In this document: positions 5,263 through 27,521 of the stretch, one piece after another
Numbering within the stretch: the stretch's first letter is position 1
Layout: the number at the start of each line of letters is the position of its first letter
NCBI GenBank assembly: GCA_001769535.1
Contig: MEOH01000002.1
Coordinates: 186,001-250,000 of the forward strand
From: Bacteroidetes bacterium GWF2_38_335
GTDB lineage: Bacteria; Bacteroidota; Bacteroidia; Bacteroidales; GWF2-38-335
DNA length: 64,000 nt
Direction: 5' to 3'
Notes under the pieces: model-generated
Seen by the model: only the letters and a program-made list of their open reading frames with translations
Told to the model about the DNA's origin: nothing
Databases searched by the model: none
Position numbers and translations under genes: made by a program

Positions 5263-6867
5263 TTACTGTGATACAATTCGCCCTGTTTGCAGTGTACCAT
5301 TTTGGTCAAATACATTGTAAAAGTAAATTCCCGATGGAAGTCCACTTGTTTCAACAGTATTAAATGATGTAACTAAAGATTTTTTTATCACTACCTCTCC
5401 TACCACATTATAAATACTTATCTGAACATGATTGGCAGTAGAGATATTATTTAAGTTGATATTAATATAAGTGTTAAATGGATTTGGATAAACTGAGATT
5501 TCGTTTTTTACATCATAAGAACAAACATCTACAGAGCTACACATTGTAGGAACAATAGCAGAAATGTTATTTGTAGTAAAAATACCGTTTGTAGTAAGTG
5601 CTCTACCGTCAAGATCAGCTTCCATTGCTATATCTATCGTTCCATTGTCAGAAACTATTGTGCCTATGAATTTAGAATTGGTGTTTAAACTAACATTTCC
5701 ATTCACCACCCAAAACACATTTTTTGCCTGTGCCCCATTCATTAATGCAACCGTTGCACCAACACTTGTACTAAGTGCTCCAGTGATTGACAGAACAAAA
5801 ACAGCATCCGCATTATTTTGAGCATTCAAAAATAAAGTGTCAGTAATAACAGTTTCAGCATCTAATAAATAAGTGTGCGGAGTAAGTACTAGTTTGTTAC
5901 CTACAGTTGCTGGATACAACAATTCAATATCAACCAATAATGTATTCAGATACGTATGCAGAAGTGTAAGATCGGTTGCACATGTAGCGGTGGCAGCATC
6001 TGGCACAAGATGTATGGTTCCAACAACATCTTCCGAAACAAATCCCGTTGTTGCACCGACATTGGTTCCAACATCTCCGGTAACATTAGTTACAGCCGTA
6101 TTTGTGAGCGCTCCGTTAGCAGTATACAATGCAAAACACTCAGTTGTTGCAAGAGTTGGTGTTACAGGGCCGTTAAGAATTGGAAGATCGCAACCCAAAG
6201 GCAAACGTGCAGTCGTTCCATCAATCGCCACAGCGCCAATAGTAGAAAACATTCTTCCTTCCAACAGACCACCGGCTGCCATTGAAATTGCAGCATTATT
6301 TGCAATAAGTGTTCCTTTCATAATGGTTCCTGCTGCCATTCCAATCGCTCCTTCTGCGATCCAAAAAACGTTGCAAGCTTTCGCATTGTTTAATAAAATA
6401 ACTTCCGTTCCGGCAGCAGTTGTAAAAGCACCACCTATTTTGAAAATAAACAGTGCATTTTCATCACCCCCGGCATCTAATGTAAGTGTTCCGGTGATGG
6501 ATCCGGCTGCAGCAATTTGATAAACTCCCGGAACAAGAATTTCTCCTGTTCCAAGTACAGCTTCATGTGTGGCAGTTGTGGTTGTTGTACTTAATTCAGA
6601 GTATAATGCAGCCAAATCAGTTGCTGCAGTTGTTGTAGATAGATCAGCAGTATGCAATACACCATCCACATTTCCGAATGTCGTAATGGCTCCTACTTGT
6701 GTCCCAACATTTCCAGTAATGTGAGAAATACCGGTATTTCCAACTGCTCCTGACGAAGTAAACAAAACATAGTCGACTGTGCTTCCCATTGTAGGCGCTT
6801 GTCCGAAACTAATGTTAGTAAAAAATAATACTGTAGCAGCTACAGTAAAAAGTAATTTTTTTTTCAT
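5263..6867 (-). CDS. T9SS-secreted protein with two DUF3494 (ice-binding-like) domains
   Basis: A clear signal peptide (residues 1-22, ending NISFGQ) is followed by two tandem copies of the DUF3494 beta-solenoid fold (about 25-230 and 240-445). Each copy has the family pattern: an opening with G-N-T-G/A-I-S/T plus VTGDVGTNVG or ITGNVGTQVG, a central GxFxFKIGGA-like or AVFVLSITGALS strand, then NVFWIAEGA or NVFWVVNGN. Residues about 455-534 form a T9SS type A sorting domain (VYPNPFNTYININL, GLPSGIYFYNV). The protein should be exported across both membranes and then anchored or released. DUF3494 proteins bind ice crystals in cold-adapted microbes, but the domain also occurs in mesophiles, possibly in adhesion. 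The Ala/Thr-rich composition suits a beta-solenoid. Domain assignment is strong; ice binding is untested. Confidence 0.85.
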   Translation of the reverse strand: MKKKLLFTVAATVLFFTNISFGQAPTMGSTVDYVLFTSSGAVGNTGISHITGNVGTQVGAITTFGNVDGVLHTADLSTTTAATDLAALYSELSTTTTTATHEAVLGTGEILVPGVYQIAAAGSITGTLTLDAGGDENALFIFKIGGAFTTAAGTEVILLNNAKACNVFWIAEGAIGMAAGTIMKGTLIANNAAISMAAGGLLEGRMFSTIGAVAIDGTTARLPLGCDLPILNGPVTPTLATTECFALYTANGALTNTAVTNVTGDVGTNVGATTGFVSEDVVGTIHLVPDAATATCATDLTLLHTYLNTLLVDIELLYPATVGNKLVLTPHTYLLDAETVITDTLFLNAQNNADAVFVLSITGALSTSVGATVALMNGAQAKNVFWVVNGNVSLNTNSKFIGTIVSDNGTIDIAMEADLDGRALTTNGIFTTNNISAIVPTMCSSVDVCSYDVKNEISVYPNPFNTYININLNNISTANHVQISIYNVVGEVVIKKSLVTSFNTVETSGLPSGIYFYNVFDQNGTLQTGRIVSQ

Positions 6868-10251: not shown

Positions 10252-10282
10252 TTGATCTGTGATGTTTTACTGAATATCTTTG
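10252..10282 (+). promoter_or_regulatory. Bacteroidota-type promoter for the XRE/pentapeptide gene
   Basis: TTG at 10252-10254, 20 bp, then TATCTTTG at 10275-10282 match the sigma-ABfr consensus exactly. The element ends 27 bp before ATG 10310. It overlaps the alternative TTG start at 10280 and so argues against that start. Confidence 0.7.
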
Positions 10283-10309
10283 CTGAAACAAAAAACAAAA
10301 AAGATTTTT

Positions 10310-11185
10310 ATGGAAACGAAAATGATAGGTAATAAAATAGCAGAAGCGAGAAAGAAAATTCAAATATCGCAAGCACAACTGGCAGAGCGCTTGTTTATCA
10401 GTGCACAGGCAGTTGGAAAATGGGAACGTGGCGAATCCATGCCGGATATCATTACATTTAACCGCATGGCTGAAATTTTGGGTGTTGACCTAAACTATTT
10501 TTCAAACAGTTTTAATTCTGTACCCGTTGCAGCGAACAACGGGAATCCCTCAGAAAAGCAAAAAAGAAAACCACTCAAGGATATGTCGCTGGGAAACTGG
10601 ACAGGTGCTGACTTTTCGGGTTTGAAAAACCTGCATAAAAAATTCAGTTCTGCCAATTTGAAAAACTGCATTTTCGCGGGTTCAGAGTTATCCGGACTTC
10701 AACTGAAAGGCAATCATGTTGATGGATGTGACTTTTCGGATTCTGATCTGTCAGTCAGCCAAATAAATAATTCATACTTAGCCAATAACAATTTCAGGGA
10801 CTGTTCGCTAAAGGAAACTGAGTTCTCAAAAAGTTTTATCAGGAGATGTGATTTTTCAGGAGCAGATTTTACCGGTGCGGTAATCAAATCGGGCGGATTT
10901 GAGAAAAACACCATTTCCGGGGCCATTTTGAATGGAACTTCCTTTATCGGGACAGCGCTTGCAGAGATTGTTTTTGATGGCAAAATAGAAGACTGCATTT
11001 TTGAAAACTGTGCTTTTTCGGGCGTAACTTTCCAAAACGCCACACTCATTGACACTTTCTTTAAAAACAAAAGTCTGAAACGAATCAGATTTATTGACTG
11101 CCATGCAGATCGTATCACCTATGCGTTTTTAAAGAATGGTAAGGCTGATTTGAATGGTGTGGAGTTGATAAATAATCAGTTTTGA
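10310..11185 (+). CDS. XRE-type HTH regulator fused to pentapeptide repeats
   Basis: Starting at ATG 10310 gives 291 residues. Residues about 1-65 are a classic Cro/C1 helix-turn-helix (IAEARKKIQISQAQLAERLF, SAQAVGKWERGESMPD). From about 90 onwards the protein is a quadrilateral beta-helix of degenerate pentapeptides with repeated A/C-x-F/L units such as FSGADFTGA, FRDCSLKETEF and FENCAFSGVTF. No signal or membrane segment is present. The likely role is a DNA-binding protein whose repeat domain mediates dimerisation, a ligand response or DNA mimicry; this is inference. Proteins of this layout recur in Bacteroidota. It is monocistronic, with a perfect promoter upstream. Confidence 0.8.
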   Translation: METKMIGNKIAEARKKIQISQAQLAERLFISAQAVGKWERGESMPDIITFNRMAEILGVDLNYFSNSFNSVPVAANNGNPSEKQKRKPLKDMSLGNWTGADFSGLKNLHKKFSSANLKNCIFAGSELSGLQLKGNHVDGCDFSDSDLSVSQINNSYLANNNFRDCSLKETEFSKSFIRRCDFSGADFTGAVIKSGGFEKNTISGAILNGTSFIGTALAEIVFDGKIEDCIFENCAFSGVTFQNATLIDTFFKNKSLKRIRFIDCHADRITYAFLKNGKADLNGVELINNQF

Positions 11186-11314: not shown

Positions 11315-13561
11315 TTATTTTTCCTCAAAAACCAGCCGGTCTCCGCGAAATGAGACAAAACGGTAAATATTGGTATTATAAAGTTTATTTCGCTCATCCG
11401 AATATTCCCTGTATTTAAACTCCGAGCCGCTGCCATGCATGGGCAATACCATGGTCGGACTGAATCGGGAAACCAGATAATCGTTACCTTTTTTCAGAAC
11501 TGTTTTGTCTCTGAAATTGCATCCGGAAATGGGAACAAAGGCAATATCAATTTTTTTGTATTTTTCAGCAAGAAAATCGATCTCTGAAGTAAAATCCTTG
11601 TCCTCATCCTGAAACCTGTTGGCATGATCACCCGGGTGGTAAATTACCAGTCCGTCCACTTCAATCATAAACCCTTCGCCGCTGTCGGTCGAAGCAATAG
11701 CAGTTATTTTTACGCCATCAATGTTTTTTTCCTCATGAGGGGCAATATATGTACAATTGGCGTTCTGAGAGTTATTGAAGCCCAAAACATAGTTGATATT
11801 TCCTATGGTTTTTGTCCAGCCAAAAATCCTTTGATCAAAGTGATCCTGATGGTTGTGTGACGCAATAGCTGTGACTTTTAGTCCGGCAATTTCTTCCGGA
11901 TTGATAAACCCGTTATTCAGGCAGAGTTTATCAGGATTAACATTGTTATCCCAGTAGTCAATGACCAGCAGATGGTTTTTTGTTTTTATGGCCCAACCAC
12001 TGTGGTTCAAATACCAGACAACCGCTTCCTTTTCTTTCAGTTCCTTTTTTAGTAAACCTGTATTTTCAGGTGCTTTTTCATTTGCAGTTCCCTTTGTCAT
12101 CAGGACTTTTTTGATTTCGTCGTTTCCATAATACGCTGCATAATATTCCGGCATATGACCTTCGGCATCTTTAGCGGAAGAATTGGCTCCATTTTCGGTC
12201 AGAATAGTAAATATCTCCCCAAATCCATAAATAGCGGCATAATGTAGGGCTGTTTTACCAGAATTGTCGGTAAGGTTAACATCTGCCTTATATTCAATCA
12301 TTTTTTTCAGCATTCCGGGTTTCTTTCTCTGAACAGTCCTGATAAGTGCTGTTTCGCCCAATTTGTTTTTAGCATTGATATTGCATTTGTTTTTGACAAG
12401 AATATCAATTGTTTCGAGACTGTCGCCCCATGTGGCATTGTGGAGGGCGGTATTCCCCTCGAGGTCGGTTTTATTGACATCAGCCCCTTTGGATATAAGA
12501 TATTTTGCAATGGAAGGGTTCCGGCTAGCAGCAGCCATTAAGGGAGTTCTTCCACTATTTGTACATGATTCCCTTTTACAAATACCGGGTTCAGTTTTCG
12601 CTCCATTTTCAACCAAAAGCTTTACAATATCTAATCTTCCGAAAGCAGATGCCATGATCAGCGGGTTGTTGCCATAATCGTCAAAAGCGTTAATATCACT
12701 GCCTTTTTCAATGAGAAGTTTAACGAGTTCGGGACTGCCGCTTTCAGCTGCCATGATGAGCCATGTGGAATGATCATTCAGCTGCTGATTGATATCTGCA
12801 CCTTTATCCAGAAGATATTTGGTCACATCGTAAAATCCATAATTGATGGGCGTCATCAGAAGACAGGACCCATCCTTTGTTTTGGAATTTACATCAACCC
12901 CTTTTTCCTCAACCAGATATTTTACAATATCCAGTTTGTTTGAAGAAGCTGCCCAAAAGACAGGAGATATTCCGTCGTTATCGAGTGCGTTGTATTCAAG
13001 ACCCTTTGACTCCAGATGTTTGAAAAGCTCAATATTTCCGCCGTTGGCAGCCCAATGGATAAGTTTCGAGCCATCGTCAGATTTTTCCATGATATCCATG
13101 CCCTTGTCAACACAATATCTGAAAATATCCATATTGCCACCCATGCATGCATACTGCAGGCAATTCTGACCTCTGGAGTTTTTTGCTGCCATGTTAGCCC
13201 CTTTTTCACTGAGTGTTCTGAATGATTCCAGATCACCCTTCCAGGCAGCGTAATGCAACGGGGTATTCCCGTAATTATTGGCTGCATTGACATTAGCCCC
13301 TTTTTTAATCAGGAATTTTACAAGATCGGTGTGACCGTCGGCTGCAGCAATAATAAGCGGAGTTGAGCCGCGCGGACTTCGTGCCTCCAGCAATGCAGGA
13401 TCTTTGTTAATGAGCTCCATTACCTGTTCAATACGCGCGCTGTCGAGCAGTCGGAACAGATCAGCTCCGGGCACGGGAGACTGGGAAAAAGATGATTTGA
13501 TAAAAATTAAGAGAAGTGCAAAAGTTAAAGTTTGAGAACTGAGGAGTTTCTTACATTTCAT
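11315..13561 (-). CDS. Exported ankyrin-repeat / metallo-beta-lactamase fusion protein
   Basis: A signal peptide (1-26, ending SSFSQ) is followed by about 13 ankyrin repeats of 33 residues (about 65-500; for example NTPLHYAAWKGDLESF, GKTALHYAAIYGFGEIF). Residues about 525-748 form an MBL-fold domain of the UlaG-like type. It has the zinc motif H-N-H-Q-D-H in IASHNHQDHFDQ, a further Asp in IYHPGDHANRF and a histidine in VLPMHGSGSEF. The zinc ligands look intact, so hydrolase activity is plausible, but the substrate is unknown. No T9SS sorting domain is present, so a periplasmic location is likely. Ankyrin arrays usually bind proteins; here they may present partners to the hydrolase. It is monocistronic. 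Confidence 0.85.
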   Translation of the reverse strand: MKCKKLLSSQTLTFALLLIFIKSSFSQSPVPGADLFRLLDSARIEQVMELINKDPALLEARSPRGSTPLIIAAADGHTDLVKFLIKKGANVNAANNYGNTPLHYAAWKGDLESFRTLSEKGANMAAKNSRGQNCLQYACMGGNMDIFRYCVDKGMDIMEKSDDGSKLIHWAANGGNIELFKHLESKGLEYNALDNDGISPVFWAASSNKLDIVKYLVEEKGVDVNSKTKDGSCLLMTPINYGFYDVTKYLLDKGADINQQLNDHSTWLIMAAESGSPELVKLLIEKGSDINAFDDYGNNPLIMASAFGRLDIVKLLVENGAKTEPGICKRESCTNSGRTPLMAAASRNPSIAKYLISKGADVNKTDLEGNTALHNATWGDSLETIDILVKNKCNINAKNKLGETALIRTVQRKKPGMLKKMIEYKADVNLTDNSGKTALHYAAIYGFGEIFTILTENGANSSAKDAEGHMPEYYAAYYGNDEIKKVLMTKGTANEKAPENTGLLKKELKEKEAVVWYLNHSGWAIKTKNHLLVIDYWDNNVNPDKLCLNNGFINPEEIAGLKVTAIASHNHQDHFDQRIFGWTKTIGNINYVLGFNNSQNANCTYIAPHEEKNIDGVKITAIASTDSGEGFMIEVDGLVIYHPGDHANRFQDEDKDFTSEIDFLAEKYKKIDIAFVPISGCNFRDKTVLKKGNDYLVSRFSPTMVLPMHGSGSEFKYREYSDERNKLYNTNIYRFVSFRGDRLVFEEK

Positions 13562-16190: not shown

Positions 16191-16251
16191 CGCCATCAAA
16201 TATTTGTTAAAGGCAAATATTTGATGGCGGGGCAGACACAAGGTCTGCCCC
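16191..16251. repeat. Two adjacent intergenic hairpins
   Basis: The first hairpin has a 16-bp perfect stem (16191-16206 with 16214-16229, core CGCCATCAAATATTTG). The second is GGGGCAGAC/GTCTGCCCC (16229-16237 with 16243-16251) and touches the stop codon of the preceding minus-strand gene. The same arrangement with a different stem sequence occurs at 18683-18753. It could act as a terminator/attenuator or an mRNA-stabilising element between cargo genes. Confidence 0.7.
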
Positions 16252-18665
16252 TACCGTATTTTTACCAATTTGTATATTTTTTCAAATCCAATGTATTTTA
16301 TTTTTATCAGATAAACTCCGTTTATGTAACCGCTAACATCCAACACATTTTCCCTGCCGTTTGCTTTTCCTGAAAATACCTTTTCTCCCGACAACCTGTA
16401 AATGTCAATGGTGTAATTATCAATTTCATTGGTATTGAAATACACTTTATCCCTTGCGGGGTTGGGCCAGAACATTACCGAGGGTTCGGCGGGGAATTCT
16501 GCGGCATCCGGATTGCTTTGCCATACCTTCACCTTTGTCATTCCGTACGATCGTGTGCTGGGCTTGTACGGCATTTTCTGTCCGCGCACACTGGTCAGGT
16601 CGGCTAGGTTGTATTTTGAAAACTCGTTGTGCGCATAGGCCACAGCCATGAAACAGTAATTTTTTCCTGTATCAATTGGCTCGCCGGTAAAGGCATCGGT
16701 TTTCATGCTGAAAGAACGTTTTAACCCGTCGTTTTCGGCATCAACAGCCAGATATGGATCATAATTATCTGAGGCAGGATTGTACCGGTGGTTGACCAGA
16801 TCGCCAATACCGTCTTTGATATCGCTCTGAAAAACACAGATAGCCTTTTCGGGATTTTGCAAATCGGCCACCGTAACATTGGTATCAACCACCTGAAAGA
16901 CCTGATATCCCTGAAAGCTGTAATAAGTATCGCAAAATTCCTGTGAAGTCAAACATTTAATCGTGGGCTCCTGCTTGTGAAAAGATTCAAGATAGTTATT
17001 GGACTCCGGCCTGTTAAACAAAAGCACGATCAGTTCGCTGGTGGTCTGAATCAGTTTGAGTTCCGGCGCATCCGGACCATCAATCAACCTGAAGCAGTTA
17101 TTGAAATATGATTGGGCTATGTCGTCGGCGCGGCGCACCTCCCTCACTGATTGCACACTATCACCATTTTGTGCTTGATCCCAAACAGCAGTAAATTTAA
17201 AATCAATTACTTCTCCGGGTGCCATTGACCCCGGGCCAGAGCTTAAAATAAAGTCCCTGTAATAGCCGTCGCCATGATTTGCCGATTCTTCGGACCATGG
17301 AAGCATTGGTATTCCGCCTTGCCCCCAACCACATGGATCAGAATCACCGGGCACATTGAAATTGGTTGGCACATCAGTTGATCCCCAGCTGGGATGTCCA
17401 CCTCCTCCATACATCAGATGCGTATTATCTTTCCAAATGCACTGCATACTTTTATAGGCCTGAGCAGCATTATAAGGAAAATCCATTACTCCACTCGGAT
17501 CATCAAAAACCCAATTAAAATTTGTAGCACCATATTTTTCATTATCAGCAATTCCGTCGCCAAAATTCAAACCGTTTATTCCGGCATTACAAGCAGCAAC
17601 ATCATCTATCCCATTTGGTTCTATTAACAGCCCTTCTAAAATATCAAATCCAATTGCAGGGGTTGGAGGACTTGAGCTATTGTAAACACTTCCATAACCT
17701 TCATCTGTACCATGACTTTTATATAAAAGAGCCATTGCCCGTTGAACATCCATGGCAACATAATTATTCAAATTTTGCCCCTGCATACCCACATTAAACA
17801 ATCCGGCATAAACTCCATGGTACGACTCAGTTGAACGGTTAATGATCTGATAATAGTAAAAAGTACAATTATTCAATTCATCAAAGCTTCTATATGCAAA
17901 TGCCTGTTGCCTTATTTCAATTTTAAAGCCCTCTCCACCATAACCTTCATGTACGTTTCCATTGTCATTATATACAAACCAAAGGTTCTGATCTCCCCAT
18001 AACCGCGATTGTTCGCTTTCAGGAGAATAACTGCACACAAGCGATTCATCCAGATCATAATAAGGATAATCCCCATCGTTTGGATTGTAATTGCCATCCT
18101 CATTATTATCAAAGAAAGGAGCCAGATAATAATCATATCCATCAGCCATATTGCTATGTGCAGGCCAGTTTAATATGATATCCGGAATCTCATATCCGGG
18201 AAAATTTCTAACTTTTTCTTCTTCACTTGAATTAAACCAGTTTCTGAAAGTTGCAATTTCACTTTTATAGGTTGTATATATTTTATCGTATTCCTCGCAA
18301 TTATCCACATCAGTTGTCCCCTGCATTTCAGGATCGGACCTTAACGGCCCCGGCCAAAAGTTGTCACCATCAAACCTGTAATGTATTCCTGAAAATTTTA
18401 CATTTCCATCATAATCAAGTCCCCCGATCCAAAATGAGCCAAAACCTGTATTTTGATAACCAGATCCTTTTGGTGCCTCATAACATCTTTCATTGGTTGA
18501 ATAATCGAACCACATGTCAGATGCATTAAATATCAAAGCCCTGATATTGTTTATTTCAAGATAAGCTGATGAGGTAGGCATAGAGCACCCCGCAGTAACC
18601 CCTTTCTGTGCATTTCCAATTTCACAGAAAACCAAAAACAACAATATGATGGTATAAATTTTCAT
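16251..18665 (-). CDS. Large T9SS cargo, paralog 1 of the four-gene family
   Basis: ATG 18665 begins a signal peptide (MKIYTIILLFLVFCEIGNA); the longer frame to 18743 reads through hairpin repeats. The mature protein begins with the family signature GVTAGCSMPTSSAYLEINN. About residues 160-185 hold APFFDNNEDGNYNPNDGDYP, resembling a calcium-binding Asp-rich loop. Residues about 245-265 hold NNCTFYYYQIINRST. The last 75 residues form a T9SS sorting domain (SVMFWPNPARDKVYFN). The family is widespread in Bacteroidota cargo, but I know no function. From RRADDIAQ to the end (about 295 residues) it differs from the next paralog at only four positions, whereas the N-terminal half has diverged strongly. 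Confidence 0.8.
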   Translation of the reverse strand: MKIYTIILLFLVFCEIGNAQKGVTAGCSMPTSSAYLEINNIRALIFNASDMWFDYSTNERCYEAPKGSGYQNTGFGSFWIGGLDYDGNVKFSGIHYRFDGDNFWPGPLRSDPEMQGTTDVDNCEEYDKIYTTYKSEIATFRNWFNSSEEEKVRNFPGYEIPDIILNWPAHSNMADGYDYYLAPFFDNNEDGNYNPNDGDYPYYDLDESLVCSYSPESEQSRLWGDQNLWFVYNDNGNVHEGYGGEGFKIEIRQQAFAYRSFDELNNCTFYYYQIINRSTESYHGVYAGLFNVGMQGQNLNNYVAMDVQRAMALLYKSHGTDEGYGSVYNSSSPPTPAIGFDILEGLLIEPNGIDDVAACNAGINGLNFGDGIADNEKYGATNFNWVFDDPSGVMDFPYNAAQAYKSMQCIWKDNTHLMYGGGGHPSWGSTDVPTNFNVPGDSDPCGWGQGGIPMLPWSEESANHGDGYYRDFILSSGPGSMAPGEVIDFKFTAVWDQAQNGDSVQSVREVRRADDIAQSYFNNCFRLIDGPDAPELKLIQTTSELIVLLFNRPESNNYLESFHKQEPTIKCLTSQEFCDTYYSFQGYQVFQVVDTNVTVADLQNPEKAICVFQSDIKDGIGDLVNHRYNPASDNYDPYLAVDAENDGLKRSFSMKTDAFTGEPIDTGKNYCFMAVAYAHNEFSKYNLADLTSVRGQKMPYKPSTRSYGMTKVKVWQSNPDAAEFPAEPSVMFWPNPARDKVYFNTNEIDNYTIDIYRLSGEKVFSGKANGRENVLDVSGYINGVYLIKIKYIGFEKIYKLVKIR

Positions 18666-18682
18666 TTTTTTCTTTTTTCCTG

Positions 18683-18753
18683 CGCCATAAGATTTGCCAG
18701 AGGCAAATTTTATGGCGGGGCAGACACAAGGGGGCAGACACAAGGTCTGCCCC
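18683..18753. repeat. Intergenic hairpin pair, second copy
   Basis: The first stem pairs 18683-18698 with 18702-18717 (CGCCATAAGATTTGCC), with one wobble/mismatch. It shares the CGCCAT ends but not the inner stem of the copy at 16191. The second stem GGGGCAGAC/GTCTGCCCC pairs 18731-18739 with 18745-18753. Its left arm is duplicated in tandem starting at 18717. Different stem sequences with preserved pairing suggest that structure matters. Confidence 0.7.
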
Positions 18754-21167
18754 TACCGTATTTTTACCAATTTATATGTTTTTTCAAATCCAATGTATTT
18801 TATTTTTATCAGATAAATTCCGTTTATGTAACCGCTCACATCCAACACATTTTCCCTGCCGTTTGCTTTTCCTGAAAATACCTTTTCGCCTGATAACCTG
18901 TAAATGTCAATGGTATAATTATTAATCTCATTGGTATTGAAATAGACCTTATCTCTTGCGGGGTTGGGCCAGAACATTACCGAGGGTTCGGCGGGGAACT
19001 CTGCGGCATCCGGATTGCTTTGCCATACCTTCACCTTTGTCATTCCGTAAGACCGGGTGCTGGGTTTGTACGGCATTTTTTGTCCGCGCACACTGGTCAG
19101 GTCGGCTGGGTTGTATTTTGAAAACTCGTTATGCGCATAGGCCACAGCCATGAAGCAGTAATTTTTTCCTGTATCAATTGGCTCGCCGGTAAAGGCATCG
19201 GTTTTCATGCTGAAGGAACGTTTGAGACCGTCGTTTTCGGCATCAACAGCCAAATATGGATCATAATTATCTGAGGCAGGATTGTACCGGTGGTTTACCA
19301 GATCGCCAATCCCGTCTTTGATATCGCTCTGAAAAACGCAGATGGCCTTTTCGGGATTTTGCAAATCGGCCACCGTAACATTGGTATCAACCACCTGAAA
19401 GACCTGATATCCCTGAAAACTGTAATACGTATCGCAAAATTCCTGTGAAGTCAGACATTTAATGGTGGGCTCTTGTTTGTGAAAAGATTCAAGATAGTTA
19501 TTGGACTCCGGCCTGTTAAACAAAAGCACAATCAGCTCGCTGGTGGTCTGTATCAGTTTGAGTTCCGGTGCATCCGGACCATCAATCAACCTGAAGCAGT
19601 TGTTGAAATAGGACTGGGCTATGTCGTCGGCGCGGCGGAGTTCTTCCACCGAAGAATATGGGGTACCGGATAAAGCCCTATCCCAAATTGCTCCAAAGTG
19701 CACTGTTGCTATTGCACCGGGTTCTAACACTCCCGGACCATTTGAAATGACAAATCTTCTGTCATAAGGACTGTTATCACATGAATATTCGTCCCATGGT
19801 GGCATTGGAACACCTCCCTGCCCAAAACCGCAAGGATCGGAAGTCCCCGGAAACATAAAATCAGTAGGAATATCCGTTGAACCACCCGAGGGATGACCTG
19901 TTCCGCCATACATCATATGAGTATTGTCTTTCCATACACACCTCAAATAATTATATGTTTCCAAAGCAGTAGTTGGATCTTGTGTTGAGGGACTACCCTC
20001 ACCAGTTCCGTTAAAATATATGAAGCTTGTTAGACCATAGCGTTCATTGTCAACAATTCCATCGCCAAAATTCAATCCATTTATTCCATTATTGCAAGCA
20101 ACAACATCGTCAATGCCGTTATCAGGAATATATAAACCTGCCATTACATCAACACCAAAAGCCGGAGGGGGCGGGTCAGGTCCTCCATATCCATAAATAA
20201 CCCCTTCATCCACTGGCAGCCCGTTAAATAGAATTCCCAATCCTCTGCTTACATCTGATTCAAGGTAATCATCATAAGCGTACCCCATATCTGCATCACT
20301 CCAAAATCCCACATAAAAATCATGATAAGTATTCACCGACCTGTTTATTATCTGATAAGAATAAAATGTACAATTATTTATTTCATCCATTGTTCTGAAA
20401 GCATATGCTTGTGCACGAATTTCTATCTGAAGGGCTTCACCATCAAATTCTGAATGTGTATTGCCGTTATCATTGAAAACAAACCAAATGTTCTGGTCAC
20501 CGCGCAGACAAGAATTTTCAGTTTCAGGCGAATACCCACAGGGTAGTTCATTAATAAGATCATAATATGGATAATCACCATCAGCAGGGTTATATGTTCC
20601 ATCTTCATTGTTGTCAAAAAAAGGAGCCAGATAATAATCATATCCCTCTGCAATATTTCCATGAGCAGGCCAGTTTGTGATTATGTCCGGAATAGAATAT
20701 TCAGGAAAATTGCTTTCTCGTTCAGCAATTGAAGAATTAAACCAATTTCGGAAAGTCAGAATATCCTTTTTATAAGTCACATATTGTTTGTCATATTTGG
20801 CGCAGTTTTCCACATCTGTATTTCCCAAATTTTCTGTAGTAGACTTCAAATGTCCTGCAAAAAAATCGCAGCCATTTGATCGATATCTCACCCCCGAAAA
20901 TTTTAATTGTTCTGATTCATCAATACCCCCAATCCAAAGAGCACCAGCAAAAGAACAATGCTTCCCCGACCCCTTAGGTATTTCATACCTTGGACTGCCC
21001 TGTAAATCCCACCACATATCCCCACCATTGTGAATCAGCGTCCGCACATTGTTCACTTCAAGAAAAGCAGAAGATGTGGGAGCGCTGCACCCGGCTGTAA
21101 TCCCTTTCTGCGGTTTGGCCGGAATGAAAAGCAATAATAACAGTAATAAACTAAGTGCAATTTTCAT
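18753..21167 (-). CDS. Large T9SS cargo, paralog 2
   Basis: The 804-residue protein has a Leu-rich signal peptide (1-19, ending FIPAKP) and the family signature GITAGCSAPTSSAFLEVNN. Further family features are GDMWWDLQGSPRYEIPKGSG, the Asp-rich FFDNNEDGTYNPADGDYPY near residue 170, GDQNIWFVFNDNGNTH, and a T9SS sorting domain in the last 75 residues (FWPNPARDKVYFNTNEINNY). The 3' half is nearly identical to paralog 1 while the 5' half is closer in style to paralogs 3 and 4 (WWD, SGKH). It is probably the first gene of a minus-strand operon with paralog 1 and the 14358 cargo gene. Confidence 0.8.
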   Translation of the reverse strand: MKIALSLLLLLLLFIPAKPQKGITAGCSAPTSSAFLEVNNVRTLIHNGGDMWWDLQGSPRYEIPKGSGKHCSFAGALWIGGIDESEQLKFSGVRYRSNGCDFFAGHLKSTTENLGNTDVENCAKYDKQYVTYKKDILTFRNWFNSSIAERESNFPEYSIPDIITNWPAHGNIAEGYDYYLAPFFDNNEDGTYNPADGDYPYYDLINELPCGYSPETENSCLRGDQNIWFVFNDNGNTHSEFDGEALQIEIRAQAYAFRTMDEINNCTFYSYQIINRSVNTYHDFYVGFWSDADMGYAYDDYLESDVSRGLGILFNGLPVDEGVIYGYGGPDPPPPAFGVDVMAGLYIPDNGIDDVVACNNGINGLNFGDGIVDNERYGLTSFIYFNGTGEGSPSTQDPTTALETYNYLRCVWKDNTHMMYGGTGHPSGGSTDIPTDFMFPGTSDPCGFGQGGVPMPPWDEYSCDNSPYDRRFVISNGPGVLEPGAIATVHFGAIWDRALSGTPYSSVEELRRADDIAQSYFNNCFRLIDGPDAPELKLIQTTSELIVLLFNRPESNNYLESFHKQEPTIKCLTSQEFCDTYYSFQGYQVFQVVDTNVTVADLQNPEKAICVFQSDIKDGIGDLVNHRYNPASDNYDPYLAVDAENDGLKRSFSMKTDAFTGEPIDTGKNYCFMAVAYAHNEFSKYNPADLTSVRGQKMPYKPSTRSYGMTKVKVWQSNPDAAEFPAEPSVMFWPNPARDKVYFNTNEINNYTIDIYRLSGEKVFSGKANGRENVLDVSGYINGIYLIKIKYIGFEKTYKLVKIR

Positions 21168-21185
21168 CGTTCAGGATTGATTTAC

Positions 21186-21193
21186 CAAATATA
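21186..21193 (-). promoter_or_regulatory. -7 promoter element for the cargo operon
   Basis: Read on the minus strand this is TATATTTG, an exact TAnnTTTG match 18 bp upstream of the start of paralog 2. No TTG was found at the expected -33 spacing, so the call is tentative. Confidence 0.4.
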
Positions 21194-21283
21194 AGAAATT
21201 TTTGTAATTATTGCATTATTAATTTATTAACGGCTGTTCACAGATTGTTTTCGGTAGGTTTTCAGTCATGAGCGGCTTTTTTT

Positions 21284-21341
21284 GTCGGAGCGCGACTCCA
21301 AGTCGTGTTAGTCGGAGTGCGACTCCAAGTCGCGCCCCGAC
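21284..21341. repeat. Dispersed GTCGGAGTGCGACTCC repeat, copy 1
   Basis: Two tandem units of GTCGGAG(T/C)GCGACTCCAAGTCG, each containing the self-complementary GGAGTGCGACTCC core, end with CGCCCCGAC. Related copies lie at 24015-24074 and 27673-27732, always next to a large cargo gene. Confidence 0.7.
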
Positions 21342-21363
21342 TAAGAAAAGTCGCACCCCAACC

Positions 21364-21403
21364 CAAAAAACAAATCCGCCCCACTGCTGCAGTGAAAGGC
21401 GGA
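21364..21403 (-). terminator. Terminator after paralog 3
   Basis: On the minus strand TCCGCC pairs with GGCGGA (21398-21403 with 21375-21380) around an inner CACTGC/GCAGTG hairpin, and is followed by TTTGTTTTTT. An exact copy lies 3679 bp away, downstream of paralog 4. Confidence 0.65.
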
Positions 21404-21436
21404 CTGTCTTCTATCATTGGCAATAAGGCGGGACTT

Positions 21437-23839
21437 TTATTGCCTTACAATTTTGTGTACCTCTTTCTTTCCGTTTTTCTCTAAATTCAGATAATATATT
21501 CCTTTTGAAAAATCACTCATATCAATGGTATTCAATCCCTCACGAACCACAAAATTCCTTAACTCTTTCCCGTGGATGTCATAGATGGTCAGATTAAGAT
21601 TCAATGAACTTTCTGACTTTACATACACCACATCGGTTACCGGATTGGGATATACCGAAATCTTTATCTCAACGGGCAATTCTTCGGCATATACGGCATC
21701 CGGATTGGTTTCATATACCTTAACATGATTCATGCCCGGCGTACGGCGGCTGGGCTTGTATGGCCTGCGTTGACCGTATAAGGTACCCGGATCAGTGGGA
21801 TTGTAATGCAGATAATCATTATGTGCATAGGCAATGGCCATATAGTAATAATTAACCTCCGGATCAAGTGCCAGTCCGGTAAACAAATCAGTGCCGGCAG
21901 TAAACACATGACCGATGCCCTCATCTGCCGCATCAACCATCAGCTTCGGCTCAGAAACTCCGGTTTCCATATTGTTAGAATAGTTGTACAGATCGCCAAT
22001 TCCATCGGCAAGGTCGCACTGATAAACCAGCCGGGCTTTGGTTTCATCGGTCAGTTCAGACACCCTGACGTCCAGTCCGGTTACCTGATAAACCTGATAT
22101 CCCTGGAAAGTGTAGAATGAATCACAATCGGGTAAACCTTCAGGAATCAGCATGGTGTAATCCTTTTTATGATATCCTTCCAGATAATTATTTGAGTTGA
22201 TGGTATTGAACAGATTGAAAAGAAACTCTCCGGAAGCAGTTGTAATCTCCATTTCGGGGGCATCCGGACTATCAGTCACCCTGAAACAATTGTCGAAATA
22301 GACCTGGGCGAGATCATCAGCCCGATTGAGTTCGGCAACCGATGGGTAAGAATTTGTCTCTACTCCCCTTGCCCACACAACACCATAGGAAAAGTCCTCG
22401 ACCTGACCGGGTTCCATGGTAAAAGAACCGGATCCCAAAACTAACCTTCTGTCACCAGAAGTATTTTCAGTGGTGATTTCGTCCCATGCCGGCATTGGAG
22501 TACCGTTCTGGCCAAACCCGCAGGGATCGGATGTTCCGGGGAACATAAACTTAGTTTCAGTGGAAGTGGCAACAGGGTCTTCAAAATAGCCGCAACCTCC
22601 ATAAACAAGATGCGAAGCATCGGTCCAAATGGACTGCAGATACATATAATAATGATAGGCAGTCCCAGGGTCGCCGGTTTCAGGGTAAACCCCACCTGAA
22701 TTACTATAATACATACTTGAATTTAACCCTGACCTTTCATTATCAGCTATTCCATCTCCAAAATTCAGTCCGTTTACCGATTCATTGCACCCGGCAGCAT
22801 TATCAATTCCGTCATTGATCATGTACGGACCTTCAAAAAAATCAATTCCGACAGCCGGCGGATTATCTCCATAAGCTGTGGCAGCCCCAAGGTCGCCTCC
22901 AGCCTGATTGAAAAAGTAACCCATTCCTCGTTGAACATCAGTTCCGACAAAATCATCCCATGGTGATCCAAGGTCAGCATCAGCAAACATTCCTGCAACC
23001 ATCTGGGTATAGGTGTGTGTTGAACGGTTTATTACTTCGTATTTATAAAAAGTACAATTATTTACTTCGTCTTCAGTACTGAGAGCAAAGGCCTGAGCTC
23101 TGATTTCCAAACCTATGGCATCACCAAAAGTTTCGCCGTGCGTGTTCCCTTTGTCATTGAAAACCCACCAGATATTTTGATCGCCATATAACCTTGGAAA
23201 CCTGTCCTCGCGTGAAAATCCACAGGGAACAGTACCTGTCAGGTCATAATATGGATAATCTCCATCTTCGGGATTGTATGCCCCATCAAGATTATAATCG
23301 AAAAAAGGAGCAAGATAATAGTCATACCCTGCGGCCTGATCACCATTGCCGGGCCAGTTCAGAATGGAGGCCGGAATTTCATATCCGGGATATTCGGCTG
23401 CCTGGGTTTCGGGATCAGAGTTATACCAGTTCACAAAAGTTTCCACTTCATCCCTATAGGTGACAAAAAGCTGGTCGTAAGCACTGCACACATCGGGTGT
23501 TACTTCGGCAGAGGAATTGAGCGGTCCGGGCCAGAAATCCACTCCGCTCATCCTGTATCTCTGGGCAGCCACATGCAGGTTTCCCGAACCATCCAGTCCG
23601 CCAAACCACATAGCTCCAACAAACATTGAATGTTTACCCGATCCTTTGGGAACTTCATATTCCGGACTTCCTGACAGATCCCACCACATATCACCGCCCG
23701 AATGAATCATGGCCCTTACATTATTTATTTCGAGGAATGCTGAGGATGTTCCGGGAGTACAACCCGCCTTGACATCCTTCTGGCAAAATGCATAATTAAA
23801 TGCGTTTACCAGGATTAGGAAAAGGAAAAGTTTCTTCAT
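21437..23839 (-). CDS. Large T9SS cargo, paralog 3
   Basis: The 800-residue protein has a signal peptide (1-19, ending NYAFCQ), then KDVKAGCTPGTSSAFLEINN and GDMWWDLSGSPEYEVPKGSG. The Asp-rich loop YNLDGAYNPEDGDYPYYD is near residue 170, and DADLGSPWDDFVGTDVQRGM is near 295. The last 75 residues are a T9SS sorting domain (ISVYPNPVTDVVYVKSE, DFSKGIYYLNLEKNG). It is most similar to paralog 4, including the last codons and 3' flank. By family knowledge the protein is translocated by the T9SS and exposed or released. The catalytic or binding role is unknown. Confidence 0.8.
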   Translation of the reverse strand: MKKLFLFLILVNAFNYAFCQKDVKAGCTPGTSSAFLEINNVRAMIHSGGDMWWDLSGSPEYEVPKGSGKHSMFVGAMWFGGLDGSGNLHVAAQRYRMSGVDFWPGPLNSSAEVTPDVCSAYDQLFVTYRDEVETFVNWYNSDPETQAAEYPGYEIPASILNWPGNGDQAAGYDYYLAPFFDYNLDGAYNPEDGDYPYYDLTGTVPCGFSREDRFPRLYGDQNIWWVFNDKGNTHGETFGDAIGLEIRAQAFALSTEDEVNNCTFYKYEVINRSTHTYTQMVAGMFADADLGSPWDDFVGTDVQRGMGYFFNQAGGDLGAATAYGDNPPAVGIDFFEGPYMINDGIDNAAGCNESVNGLNFGDGIADNERSGLNSSMYYSNSGGVYPETGDPGTAYHYYMYLQSIWTDASHLVYGGCGYFEDPVATSTETKFMFPGTSDPCGFGQNGTPMPAWDEITTENTSGDRRLVLGSGSFTMEPGQVEDFSYGVVWARGVETNSYPSVAELNRADDLAQVYFDNCFRVTDSPDAPEMEITTASGEFLFNLFNTINSNNYLEGYHKKDYTMLIPEGLPDCDSFYTFQGYQVYQVTGLDVRVSELTDETKARLVYQCDLADGIGDLYNYSNNMETGVSEPKLMVDAADEGIGHVFTAGTDLFTGLALDPEVNYYYMAIAYAHNDYLHYNPTDPGTLYGQRRPYKPSRRTPGMNHVKVYETNPDAVYAEELPVEIKISVYPNPVTDVVYVKSESSLNLNLTIYDIHGKELRNFVVREGLNTIDMSDFSKGIYYLNLEKNGKKEVHKIVRQ

Positions 23840-24014
23840 AGCATGTTTTTCTTAAAGATACGTACAAAACCAAAAATTATGTTGACCAATTAACAAGTAC
23901 CATACTTCAGTTACCGAAAGGGGCTTTTTTATCTACTAACGGTCGCTCGCTCCACTCCGCTCACCCAAGTCTCCCGACTTGAGTGCTTTGCTTCCCGACT
24001 TGGGTGCTTTTTTA

Positions 24015-24074
24015 GTCGGAGTGCGACTCCAAGTCGTGCCCCGACTAAAAAAAAACTCCAAGTCGCGCCCCGAC
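24015..24074. repeat. Dispersed GTCGGAGTGCGACTCC repeat, copy 2
   Basis: This unit reads GTCGGAGTGCGACTCC followed by AAGTCGTGCCCCGAC and a second partial unit (ACTCCAAGTCGCGCCCCGAC). It is upstream of paralog 3. Confidence 0.7.
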
Positions 24075-24083
24075 AATAAACGT

Positions 24084-24167
24084 AACCATCATTCAGTTAT
24101 AAATAACCATCCTCCAATTATAAACAACCATAGTTCAGTTATAAATAACTATTGACCAATAATATTT
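24084..24167. repeat. 21-bp tandem repeats, candidate operator array
   Basis: Units start at 24084, 24105, 24126 and 24147, with the pattern AACCATnnTnCARTTATAAAY; the fourth is degenerate. The 21-bp period equals two helical turns, so the units face the same side of DNA. Single related sequences (ACCATACTTCAGTTAC) lie just upstream of paralogs 3 and 4. Binding by the neighbouring HTH protein is a guess. Confidence 0.55.
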
Positions 24168-24510
24168 TTTTATCCCTTTCATATATCTGTTTATTACGTT
24201 TTGATAACATTTACTTATTTTTTTATTATTTAAGATGCTGTTTATTTCTTTATTATCTTATTTATATATAGTTTTAATATTTATTGATAACTTTTTGTCA
24301 TTTTTAAATATTTAGTTATTAATAAGTAAAATTATTTTATCAGTTTTAAATATTAATTTATATTATAATATTCATAATATATATATTTTTTCTATATAAA
24401 TATAATTTTTTGCTATTTTGTTATAATATAATTGAATTTTATAAGATTTTTAAATATTTTTATGTTAGATATTAATAATATTATTAACTGATTATTTAAA
24501 AACAAATAAA

Positions 24511-24858
24511 ATGATTACCTACAACCTCCAAAGAATGTTTCGATTAAGGTCTATCGGAAAACCCTTTACATTCCTGCGCCAAAACGGCTTTACCTACGCC
24601 ATTGCACACCGGCTGGCATCGGGCAAGTTCAAGGGGATGAACAACCAGCACCTCTATAAACTCTGTCAATTACTTTATTGCACTCCAAACGACCTCATGG
24701 ATTACACCCCCGGCAACGACCCCGAAGACCACCCCCTACACACACTTATAAAAGACAACCCAACCCACAACTACACCTCCGAGATGCGCAAAATGTCCCT
24801 CGAAAAACTTAAAAAACTCGACCAGTTCCTCACTGACCTGAAAAATGACGACATATAA
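24511..24858 (+). CDS. Small XRE/Cro-type HTH regulator
   Basis: The 115-residue protein has an HTH_26-like domain over about residues 5-70 (MFRLRSIGKPFTFLRQNGF, HRLASGKFKGMNNQHLYKLC, LYCTPNDLMDYTPG). A short helical tail follows (SLEKLKKLDQFLTDLKN), similar to tails that mediate dimerisation. It lies between the two copies of a segmental duplication, on the opposite strand to the cargo genes, behind a very AT-rich leader. Codon choice (many ACC, CAC, CCC) is more GC-rich than the leader. It could regulate the flanking cargo genes through the 21-bp repeats (inference). Confidence 0.8.
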   Translation: MITYNLQRMFRLRSIGKPFTFLRQNGFTYAIAHRLASGKFKGMNNQHLYKLCQLLYCTPNDLMDYTPGNDPEDHPLHTLIKDNPTHNYTSEMRKMSLEKLKKLDQFLTDLKNDDI

Positions 24859-24863
24859 CCGTT

Positions 24864-24887
24864 CACCCAAGTCTCCAGACTTGGGTG
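24864..24887. repeat. CACCCAAGTC hairpin
   Basis: An 11-bp stem CACCCAAGTCT/AGACTTGGGTG has a 2-nt loop just after the HTH stop codon. The same hairpin with small changes is found near 23962 and at 27637-27660, upstream of paralogs 3 and 4. It lacks a T run, so it is listed as a repeat rather than a terminator. Confidence 0.6.
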
Positions 24888-24965
24888 TCGTTATCAAGTC
24901 TCCCTGCCAACCTCCGGTCAAGCACTTCCAAAACAAAGTTTTCAGGATATTACCATTCTACCATT

Positions 24966-25036
24966 TAACTATTTTGTCACACATCACCCATAACCCATAA
25001 CCCATAACTTATAACCCATAACTCATAACCCAAAAC
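24966..25036. repeat. 7-bp tandem repeats (CCCATAA)n
   Basis: About nine imperfect units of CCCATAA/CTCATAA. This is the complement of the (GTTATGA/G)n tracts at 53457-53612 and near 61295. Confidence 0.75.
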
Positions 25037-25042
25037 CCAACC

Positions 25043-25082
25043 CAAAAAACAAATCCGCCCCACTGCTGCAGTGAAAGGCGGA
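25043..25082 (-). terminator. Terminator after paralog 4
   Basis: Identical to the terminator at 21364-21403: nested TCCGCC/GGCGGA and CACTGC/GCAGTG stems followed on the minus strand by TTTGTTTTTT. It lies inside the 105-bp identical block 25039-25143. Confidence 0.65.
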
Positions 25083-25115
25083 CTGTCTTCTATCATTGGC
25101 AATAAGGCGGGACTT

Positions 25116-27521
25116 TTATTGCCTTACAATTTTGTGTACCTCTGACTTGCTGTTTTGTTCGATCTTCAGATAATAAACCCCGGGAGCAAAATCTGAAAAA
25201 TCTACAGATAAACTTCCTTCAACCGATTCAACTTTTCGCATCATTTTTCCGCGACTGTTGTATATTGATATGGTTAATGGATAATCCTCAATTGTATTAA
25301 TATAAACTATTCCATTTGTTGGATTTGGATATACATTGGCATTTAATCCAGCTATCTCTGCAATTGAATTTACTGCATTCATATTTGTCTGGTAAACTCT
25401 TACATAATTCAGTCCTACCGACCTGCGACTTGGTTTGTACGGTTTTTTCTGTCCGGTGAAAGTAGCAGGATCAGCCGGATTATAATGCAGGTAATCATTA
25501 TATGCATAGGCAATGGCCATGTAAAAATAATTGTTTCCTGTATCCAGCGGTTCACCGGTAAATTTATCTTCATTTGCCGTGAAATAATGATCAATCCCGG
25601 TGTTTGCAGCAGTAACCATTAAAGTGGGTGTGCTTGTTCCGGAACTAATATCAACAATATAATTGATCAGATCTTCAATTGCATCATTCACATCGCACTG
25701 AAACACCAAACGTGCTTTTGTATCATCATTCAACTCATTAACGGTTATGCTTGTATCGGTAACCTGATATACCTGATATCCCTGAAAAGTAAAAAATGAA
25801 TCGCATTCTGTTGTTCCCACGGGAGCAGAAATTGTATAATCAAGTTTGTGATACAATTCCAGATAATTATTTGAAGCTGCAGTATTAAATAAATTGAACT
25901 GAAATTCACCCGGAGCAGTGGTGATGGTCATATCCGGGGCATCCGGACCATCAATCAACCTGAAACAGTTATCAAAATATGCCTGAGCAATATCATCGGC
26001 ACGCATGAGTTCGGCAAGAGATGCCAGTGAATCGCCGGTCTCTGCCCTTGCCCAAACCGCTGCGTATGAAATATCATCTACTTGGCCGGGTTCCATCCTG
26101 AATTCACCGGTAGCCATCAGAATTCTTCTGTCATAGGGCACATTGCTTTCAGTGATTTCATCCCACTGAGGCATAGGTATGCCGCCCTGACCAAAGCCGC
26201 ATGGATCTGAAATTCCTGGGAAAATAATATCAGATTGTGTTGTTGTGGAACCGGCATTTGAATAATGTCCGGTTCCCCCGTAAAACAAAGGAGAACCATC
26301 TTTCCAAATTGACTGCAAGTACTGATAGTATTCAAGCGCCGAGGAAGGATCCTGAGTTGCCGGATTCCCTTCACCCATATTATTTATAAATATGCAATGA
26401 TTTAAACCAGACCTTTCATTATCAATAATTCCGTCATCAAAATTTAAACCTGTAATTGAAGAATTGCAACCTGTAAGGTCATCCATTCCATTATTTTCAA
26501 GATATGGCCCTTCAAAAAAGTCAATCCCAATGACAGGTGGTCTTTCACCATAACTGTAAACAACCCCCTCATCAACAGCTCTTCCATTGTAGAAATAACC
26601 CAAACCTCTTTGTACATCACAACCTCCGTAATCATCATAACTATAACCCAAATCACCATCAGTCCAGATACCAGCATACATTTGAGTATAAGTAGTTGAA
26701 GAACGGTTAATAATCTGATATGAGTAAAAAGTGCAATTATTCAGTTCATCGGTTGTTGAAAAAGCAAAAGCCTGCGCCCTGATTTCAAGTCCGATTGAAT
26801 TTCCTCCACTTTCAGTATGATCATTCCCTTTATCATTATACACCCACCAGATATTTTGATCACCATACAAGCGCGGCACCCTGTTCTCCCTTGAAAAACC
26901 ACATGGAACATCATCGTTTAAATCATAATATGGATAATCACCGTCATTCGGATTATAATTACCATCCTGATTGTTATCAAAAAAAGGAGCCAGATAATAA
27001 TCATAACCCGATGCCACATCGCCATGAGCAGGCCAATTAATAATTGATTCAGGAATCACATAATCGGGATATTCTGATGCCTGAGTTGCAGGGTCAGAAT
27101 TAAACCAATCATTGAAAGTTTCTACTTCCTCCCTGAAGGTGACAAAAAGATAATCGTATGATGAGCATACATCCGGACTGACCTCTGCATCTAGAGTGGT
27201 TAATGGTCCGGGCCAATAATCAACTCCTTCGCTGCGGTAACGCTGAGCAGCCAGATGAAGATTGCCTGATTCATCAATTCCTCCGAACCATAAAGATCCT
27301 GCAAACAAGGAGTGTTTTCCAGAGCCTTTAGGAACTTCATACTGCGCATTTCCTGAAAGATCCCACCACATATCACCGCCTGAATGAATCAGTGCCCTTA
27401 CATTATTTATTTCGAGGAATGCTGAGGATGTTCCGGGGGTACAACCTGCTTTGACATCCTTTTGGCAATATGTAATATTATATACAAAAGCCATGGTAAT
27501 AAGTAAAAGTAGATTTTTCAT
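25116..27521 (-). CDS. Large T9SS cargo, paralog 4
   Basis: The 801-residue protein has a signal peptide (1-19, ending NITYCQ), then KDVKAGCTPGTSSAFLEINN and DMWWDLSGNAQYEVPKGSGK. Other family features are FFDNNQDGNYNPNDGDYPYY near residue 170, GDQNIWWVYNDKGNDH, and DGDLGYSYDDYGGCDVQRGL near 290. The last 70 residues are a T9SS sorting domain (ANVYPNPTNGIVYINTIE, DFAPGVYYLKIEQNS). It has an intact TTG-N21-TAGTTTTG promoter, unlike paralog 3. Function is unknown. Conserved Asp-rich loops suggest calcium-stabilised repeats. Confidence 0.8.
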   Translation of the reverse strand: MKNLLLLITMAFVYNITYCQKDVKAGCTPGTSSAFLEINNVRALIHSGGDMWWDLSGNAQYEVPKGSGKHSLFAGSLWFGGIDESGNLHLAAQRYRSEGVDYWPGPLTTLDAEVSPDVCSSYDYLFVTFREEVETFNDWFNSDPATQASEYPDYVIPESIINWPAHGDVASGYDYYLAPFFDNNQDGNYNPNDGDYPYYDLNDDVPCGFSRENRVPRLYGDQNIWWVYNDKGNDHTESGGNSIGLEIRAQAFAFSTTDELNNCTFYSYQIINRSSTTYTQMYAGIWTDGDLGYSYDDYGGCDVQRGLGYFYNGRAVDEGVVYSYGERPPVIGIDFFEGPYLENNGMDDLTGCNSSITGLNFDDGIIDNERSGLNHCIFINNMGEGNPATQDPSSALEYYQYLQSIWKDGSPLFYGGTGHYSNAGSTTTQSDIIFPGISDPCGFGQGGIPMPQWDEITESNVPYDRRILMATGEFRMEPGQVDDISYAAVWARAETGDSLASLAELMRADDIAQAYFDNCFRLIDGPDAPDMTITTAPGEFQFNLFNTAASNNYLELYHKLDYTISAPVGTTECDSFFTFQGYQVYQVTDTSITVNELNDDTKARLVFQCDVNDAIEDLINYIVDISSGTSTPTLMVTAANTGIDHYFTANEDKFTGEPLDTGNNYFYMAIAYAYNDYLHYNPADPATFTGQKKPYKPSRRSVGLNYVRVYQTNMNAVNSIAEIAGLNANVYPNPTNGIVYINTIEDYPLTISIYNSRGKMMRKVESVEGSLSVDFSDFAPGVYYLKIEQNSKSEVHKIVRQ

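Follow-up and report, generated by a model that had tools for sequence, protein, structure and literature searches.

What does a protein do that carries a signal-peptide-like start, a long ankyrin array and a metallo-β-lactamase (MBL)-fold domain in one reading frame, where in the cell would it act, and on what? Such a frame lies in the stretch of DNA analysed here (hereafter the window), which covers 64,000 nucleotides of contig MEOH01000002.1 from Bacteroidetes bacterium GWF2_38_335 (positions 186,001 to 250,000).

Anatomy of the fusion and its export signal

A 748-aa frame, ATG to stop, occupies exactly 11315..13561 on the minus strand, and its parts and immediate neighbours are listed below with the evidence for each.

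11315..13561, minus strand: whole ORF, consisting of signal peptide, 13 ankyrin repeats and MBL-fold domain, 748 aa (ORF list, Pfam, model)
13484..13561, minus strand: predicted Sec signal peptide, approximately aa 1–26 (hydropathy heuristic; model helix 9–25)
12095..13471, minus strand: ankyrin solenoid, aa 31–489, with 13 in-register repeats and an N-terminal helix pair (Pfam, model)
11318..12049, minus strand: MBL-fold domain (PF13483), aa 505–748 (Pfam, model, fold search)
11840..11857, minus strand: HNHQDH metal motif, aa 569–574 (sequence, family residue count)
11684..11686, minus strand: Asp626, aligned with UlaG Asp184, replacing the remaining metal histidine (profile alignment)
11627..11629, minus strand: Asp645 of the GDH motif, predicted bridging metal ligand (residue alignment)
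11519..11521, minus strand: Cys681 of the fusion-specific Gly-Cys motif (residue count, fusions against unfused relatives)
11435..11437, minus strand: His709 (PMH), predicted last metal ligand (residue alignment)
10280..11185, plus strand: flanking HTH–pentapeptide protein, 301 aa
13757..14269: flanking small exported-looking protein with no Pfam match

In Pfam, Ank_2 matched the protein with 292 bits across seven stretches, and Lactamase_B_3 (PF13483) matched aa 516–709 with 51.5 bits, above its cut-off of 24. Thirteen ankyrin repeats could be placed in register along the sequence, and the full-length AlphaFold2 model (pLDDT 88.3, pTM 0.78; 15-row alignment) gives 14 helix pairs at aa 31–489 followed by an α/β MBL domain from approximately aa 505, with a less certain link at approximately aa 490–500. 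Modelled alone, the MBL domain gives a confident fold (pLDDT 90.3) that opens with a strand at residues 9–15. The first-pass annotation of this DNA, which had described a fusion of 13 ankyrin repeats with an MBL-fold hydrolase over this interval, is therefore borne out in its anatomy by the ORF, Pfam, the repeat register and the model.

The N terminus, MKCKKLLSSQTLTFALLLIFIKSSFSQ, has a mean hydropathy of 3.09 over its best 10-mer, with three K/R residues ahead of it, compared with 1.85 for the best 10-mer elsewhere in the protein, and cleavage would be expected near SFSQ. Signal-peptide calls were made with a hydropathy heuristic, by which a signal-peptide-like N terminus is present in 26/26 fusions with a readable start, sequences that have otherwise diverged; this supports the export that had been claimed for the protein. 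No type IX sorting tail (Por_Secre_tail, CHU_C) was matched by Pfam in the fusion, and several neighbouring genes carry one, among them 5263–6867 (minus strand), which encodes an ice-binding-like domain in two stretches together with such a tail.

Distribution and descent

Ankyrin–MBL fusions of this kind were found at 27 non-redundant loci, including that of the window, and this count is a lower bound because the scans favour close relatives. The architecture, which had been called unusual and for which a survey of domain architectures had been proposed as a check, is thus recurrent, yet no paper describing it, or any exported ankyrin–MBL family, was found in the literature; the fusion is well conserved, new as a combination and built of known parts. 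A pattern scan of GTDB genome contigs returned 30 loci, including 18 with signal peptide–ankyrin–MBL or 5′-cut fusions (L028–L039, L042–L044, L048, L055, and L056), five with unfused exported MBL proteins (L040, L041, and L045–L047), six with short cytosolic-type MBL proteins of Clostridium and a relative (L049–L054), and one partial locus (L057). Before the total of 27 was reached, L032 (a near copy of L031), L057 (partial frame), L010/L026 (the same locus as L043), and L091 (the same as L028) were left out. Conservation of the KTKN stretch was set aside as evidence because the scan pattern itself selected for KTKN.

The record titles span approximately 10 phyla, including Bacteroidales, Aminicenantes, WOR-3, Phycisphaerae, Zixiibacteriota, Acidobacteria, Gemmatimonadota, Krumholzibacteriia, KSB1, Fischerbacteria, and one “Alphaproteobacteria” bin, and these assignments are only as reliable as the metagenome bins from which the titles derive. 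The near-identical loci L031 and L032 are in bins titled Alphaproteobacteria and Bacteroidales, and the contig in the Alphaproteobacteria bin is probably misbinned. Within the order of the window's genome, the MBL profile matched 49 of 393 genomes at 1e-10, and the fusion was present in 11 of the 393 at 12 loci (own genome, G774, G057, G490, G734, G588 with two loci, G547, G528, G590, G736, and G606). Single-sequence searches recovered fusions only in the own genome and G057 among 60 relatives, and none besides that of the own genome among 395 genomes of the phylum. A pattern search of viral contigs gave no relative, and seven plasmid records matched, all at <60% identity.

Mean identity over six relatives is 0.46 in the MBL domain versus 0.39 in the ankyrins. 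In a tree of 32 MBL domains, exported and cytosolic relatives are split at 100/100, and the tree is compatible with one origin of the fusion or with several. A second exported-looking type of ankyrin–MBL fusion (L045:3388–4908 and L046:3253–4554) immediately precedes the gene of an unfused, exported MBL protein of UlaG-like type; because this type uses another MBL family (PF00753), ankyrin arrays and MBL enzymes have probably been joined more than once. Fusions to repeats or propellers were also seen in other hydrolases that look exported, at L102:6493–8175, L095:12365–14347, and L029:494–2113, where the types are UlaG-like MBL with PD40, α/β hydrolase with TPR and SMP-30, and serine β-lactamase-like with TPR. 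In addition, the own genome (C7, near 104992–107702; L003/L007) encodes a pair of adjacent, exported-looking proteins that consist of ankyrins only and carry no enzyme domain.

Metal site and fold relatives

All of the ligands H569, H571, D573, H574, D645, and H709 are present in the window's protein, and the set HxHxDH, D645, and H709 is retained in 24/27 fusions, with losses in L055, L056, and L101; this retention supports the hydrolase-type domain that had been read from the sequence. In a profile of 26 MBL domains, Asp626 aligns with UlaG residue 184, although the local alignment is weak. UlaG and 3BV6 are described as carrying Asp184, and CmlA Glu377, at the position occupied by histidine in zinc enzymes (PMC7846560), and UlaG is reported to be Mn2+-dependent, with sequence-based metal prediction being error-prone (PMC3219644). 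Since Asp626 aligns with this Asp184, zinc is not to be assumed, and of the “intact zinc motif” claimed for the protein, the HxHxDH signature stands while the full ligand set is non-canonical, with Asp626 replacing the usual histidine. Of the 27 fusions, 22 have Asp at residue 626, L043 has Glu, and L048 has His; among the ligand-less L055, L056, and L101, one has Lys and two have Glu. A histidine is found at or near this position in four of six unfused exported relatives (column 624 in L045–L047 and 626 in L100).

A Gly-Cys pair at 680–681 is present in 23/23 readable ligand-intact fusions, a count that leaves out L048, where it is masked, and the three fusions that have lost their ligands. 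Cys681 is absent from all 23 unfused relatives (0/6 exported and 0/17 cytosolic, 17/20 cytosolic controls having been recognised); the Fisher test of this contrast takes no account of common ancestry. As judged from the fold, the Cys681 loop, which follows the strand ending in FVPIS, probably borders the pocket. The fusion bears marks of its own, namely the Gly-Cys motif and Asp for His.

UlaG, a cytosolic lactonase and sugar-acid enzyme not known to carry ankyrins, is the top Foldseek match of the domain in the PDB (1.1e-13), followed by Igni18 (4e-13), TM1162 (6.4e-12), 3kl7 (2.1e-10), and NAPE-PLD (8.5e-10). It shares HxHxDH and the Asp184-type ligand with the fusion, but the sequence match is weak: the profile of 26 domains, searched against solved structures, matched UlaG at only 0.0088, with 3kl7 also matched and TM1162 at the top (3.8e-8). 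UlaG is further described as hexameric, with an arm of three helices at its N terminus (PMC3219644); this arm is absent from the fusion, in which the MBL-domain model starts with a strand and is preceded by the ankyrins. The UPF0173/TM1162 metal-dependent hydrolase (PDB 3x2x–3x30), the top sequence match, differs in retaining a histidine at the position of Asp626 (PMC7846560), and the UPF0173 equivalog PRK00685 (NCBIfam) scored 26.9 bits, short of its cut-off of 144. The nearest sequence relatives are cytosolic MBL hydrolases of Bacteroidales and Clostridium with GSTDxG and IFHAGDLNNWHW motifs, which also have Asp at 626 but lack the signal peptide, ankyrins, and Cys681 and form a separate group at 100/100.

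VIA-align gave Z scores of 19.7–20.9 for Igni18, UlaG, NAPE-PLD, and TM1162, and families absent from the structure listings were not counted as evidence of absence. The substrate is not settled by the fold because CPSF-type nucleases match equally well (Z 20.6, up to 22.1). Igni18 itself is described as promiscuous, acting on lactones, phosphodiesters, and phospholipids (PMC7846560). No class B β-lactamase model was among the 13 NCBIfam matches with E values of up to 0.1, and the MZA anti-phage equivalog MzaA reached 147.7 bits against 800. The PADLOC candidate PDC-M72A matched the whole protein with 251 bits, its best stretch lying in the ankyrins, and the MBL domain alone had no PADLOC match. 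A giant-virus MBL-fold sequence carries an ankyrin-repeat annotation (PMC10340364), so that both parts are named for one protein as in the fusion, but that sequence is viral.

Neighbouring genes and possible roles

In the window, the fusion gene is convergent with the flanking gene at 10280–11185 (plus strand), which joins an Xre-type HTH to a pentapeptide-repeat (Qnr/MfpA-like) region. Scanning the window for what we take to be the Bacteroidota-type promoter motif gave two matches compared with 4.8 expected, none near the fusion gene. Further along, four related proteins of approximately 800 aa are encoded in tandem at 16251–27521 (minus strand; 44–72% identity), and two of these neighbours (16251–18743 and 18753–21167) have 885 bases in common at 95% in their 3′ parts, which looks as it might after recent gene conversion or duplication.

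Elsewhere in the family, seven of the 27 fusions have a histidine kinase gene (PF06580) next to them, with a LytTR response regulator gene after it. This pair is divergent from the fusion in L028, L029, L035, L092, L094, and L101, and in L031 it lies downstream of the fusion on its strand. Three kinases and two regulators were run against Pfam, and the remainder were recognised by BLAST. No such pair adjoins the unfused controls (0/6 exported and 0/19 cytosolic; Fisher p = 0.010 for 7/27 versus 0/25, the seven loci not being independent events because their kinases fall into two types). Control locus L141, whose MBL gene was missed by ORF picking, was left out beforehand, so that 19/20 cytosolic loci were scored, and the fusion loci L048, L056, and L093 are truncated at one end. 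Neither the window's copy nor many other fusions have a two-component system beside them, and nothing in the own genome comes closer to the L028 kinase than 30% identity, which leaves it without a close orthologue there. A kinase ≥49% identical to that of L028 occurs in four genomes, in three of them beside a fusion and in G489 without one, and the fusion adjoins the kinase at none of eight further kinase loci, G489 included. Linkage to a two-component system as a rule of the family (7/27 only, absent in the window) and exclusive pairing of kinase and fusion (G489 and 0/8) were thus both ruled out. Other neighbours include exported-looking serine β-lactamase-like proteins with TPRs, PD40 and SMP-30 propeller proteins, choloylglycine-type amidases, and isochorismatase-like proteins.

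The reading we favour, to which we give about an even chance, is that the fusion is a Sec-exported, soluble periplasmic metallo-hydrolase that belongs to the UlaG/TM1162/NAPE-PLD-like branch of the MBL fold and docks through its ankyrin rod, sometimes linked to a sensor. Sec export would deliver the soluble protein to the periplasm or, less likely, to the surface, and the rod of 14 helix pairs would dock the enzyme at an envelope partner, either a protein or a polymer. The catalytic domain would probably cleave a small phosphoester, lactone, or amide/ester compound at a UlaG-type, Mn/Fe-leaning metal site formed by HxHxDH, Asp626, Asp645, and His709. In part of the family, the window's copy not being included, the histidine kinase/LytTR pair may control the gene on sensing the substrate or product. 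Speaking for this reading are the shared export signature, the retained ligands, the UlaG-like fold, the better conservation of the MBL domain, the split between exported and cytosolic relatives, the kinase linkage, the second fusion type with PF00753, and the precedent of AnkB and KatB; against it stand the variable paratope positions of the ankyrins, the window's copy with no two-component system beside it, and the kinases that occur away from any fusion. Catalysis is not needed everywhere, because the site is lost in three of the 27 fusions, one of which still stands beside a two-component system.

That locus, L101, favours the main rival, a receptor role, which we consider unlikely on balance and in which the MBL domain would bind a small molecule and the ankyrin rod would present it to a LytTR-type kinase or Cache-domain sensor, with cleavage secondary or lost. 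L101 lacks the metal ligands and keeps its divergent kinase/regulator pair, L055 and L056 are likewise without ligands, and a Cache/PAS/GAF sensor diverges from the fusion in L043, which would fit this role together with the seven kinase-linked loci. On the other hand, the ligands persist in most fusions, no sensor stands beside the window's copy, and the kinase family is often found without a fusion.

At the DARPin paratope positions, which we take to be 2, 3, 5, 13, 14, and 33, mean identity between orthologues is 0.26 versus 0.39 overall; no fixed ankyrin partner is therefore evident, and a conserved paratope as a sign of one was ruled out. The ankyrins are nevertheless plausible as a recruitment surface. 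Variable paratope positions would also suit an array without an external partner, which stabilises or orients the MBL domain or aids metal loading within the molecule, and the invariant ankyrin columns (15-row alignment) are concentrated in the last repeats ahead of that domain. Periplasmic ankyrin proteins are reported to promote catalase activity in trans, as AnkB does for KatB (as cited in PMC10294975). Such proteins resemble the fusion in tying an exported ankyrin array to enzyme function, but their partner is a separate catalase, whereas that of the fusion is its own MBL domain, and no catalase gene adjoins the fusion in the window, both flanking genes encoding other proteins. Because unfused exported relatives exist, the MBL domain can fold alone, and the array varies widely in length (complete fusion proteins of 540–793 aa), both of which speak against a self-chaperoned enzyme and leave it distinctly improbable.

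Effectors of bacteria that live inside host cells often contain ankyrin repeats, and NCBIfam models of Dot/Icm ankyrin effectors (AnkH and others) did match the fusion. A secreted effector or toxin acting on a host or competitor cell is nonetheless very improbable, as the best of these scores, 151.8 bits, falls far below the cut-off of 600 and is due entirely to the ankyrins, the protein has no type IX sorting tail, and its relatives are scattered over many uncultured lineages; the effector-like role suggested earlier thus found no support, nor did a specific envelope-stress role. A cytosolic protein with a non-functional signal peptide is hardly credible in view of the start shared by otherwise diverged fusions, even if the heuristic is the sole source of the export call and the MBL domain has numerous cytosolic relatives.

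Bacterial envelope ankyrin arrays are known mostly as catalase helpers, and here such an array shares one protein with a hydrolase domain, a combination that persists, by record titles, across approximately 10 phyla. A broader interpretation, which is speculative and which we think doubtful, is that repeat-tethered envelope hydrolases are wired to LytTR systems across phyla, the fusion removing the kinase's signal and its ligand-less forms only reporting it. If true, this would be a hitherto undescribed periplasmic circuit for clearing signals, acting on an extracellular small molecule. The family's own marks and its recurrent two-component neighbour make substrate, docking partner, and regulation each testable, and the members that lack the ligands could serve as natural controls in asking whether binding is enough by itself.
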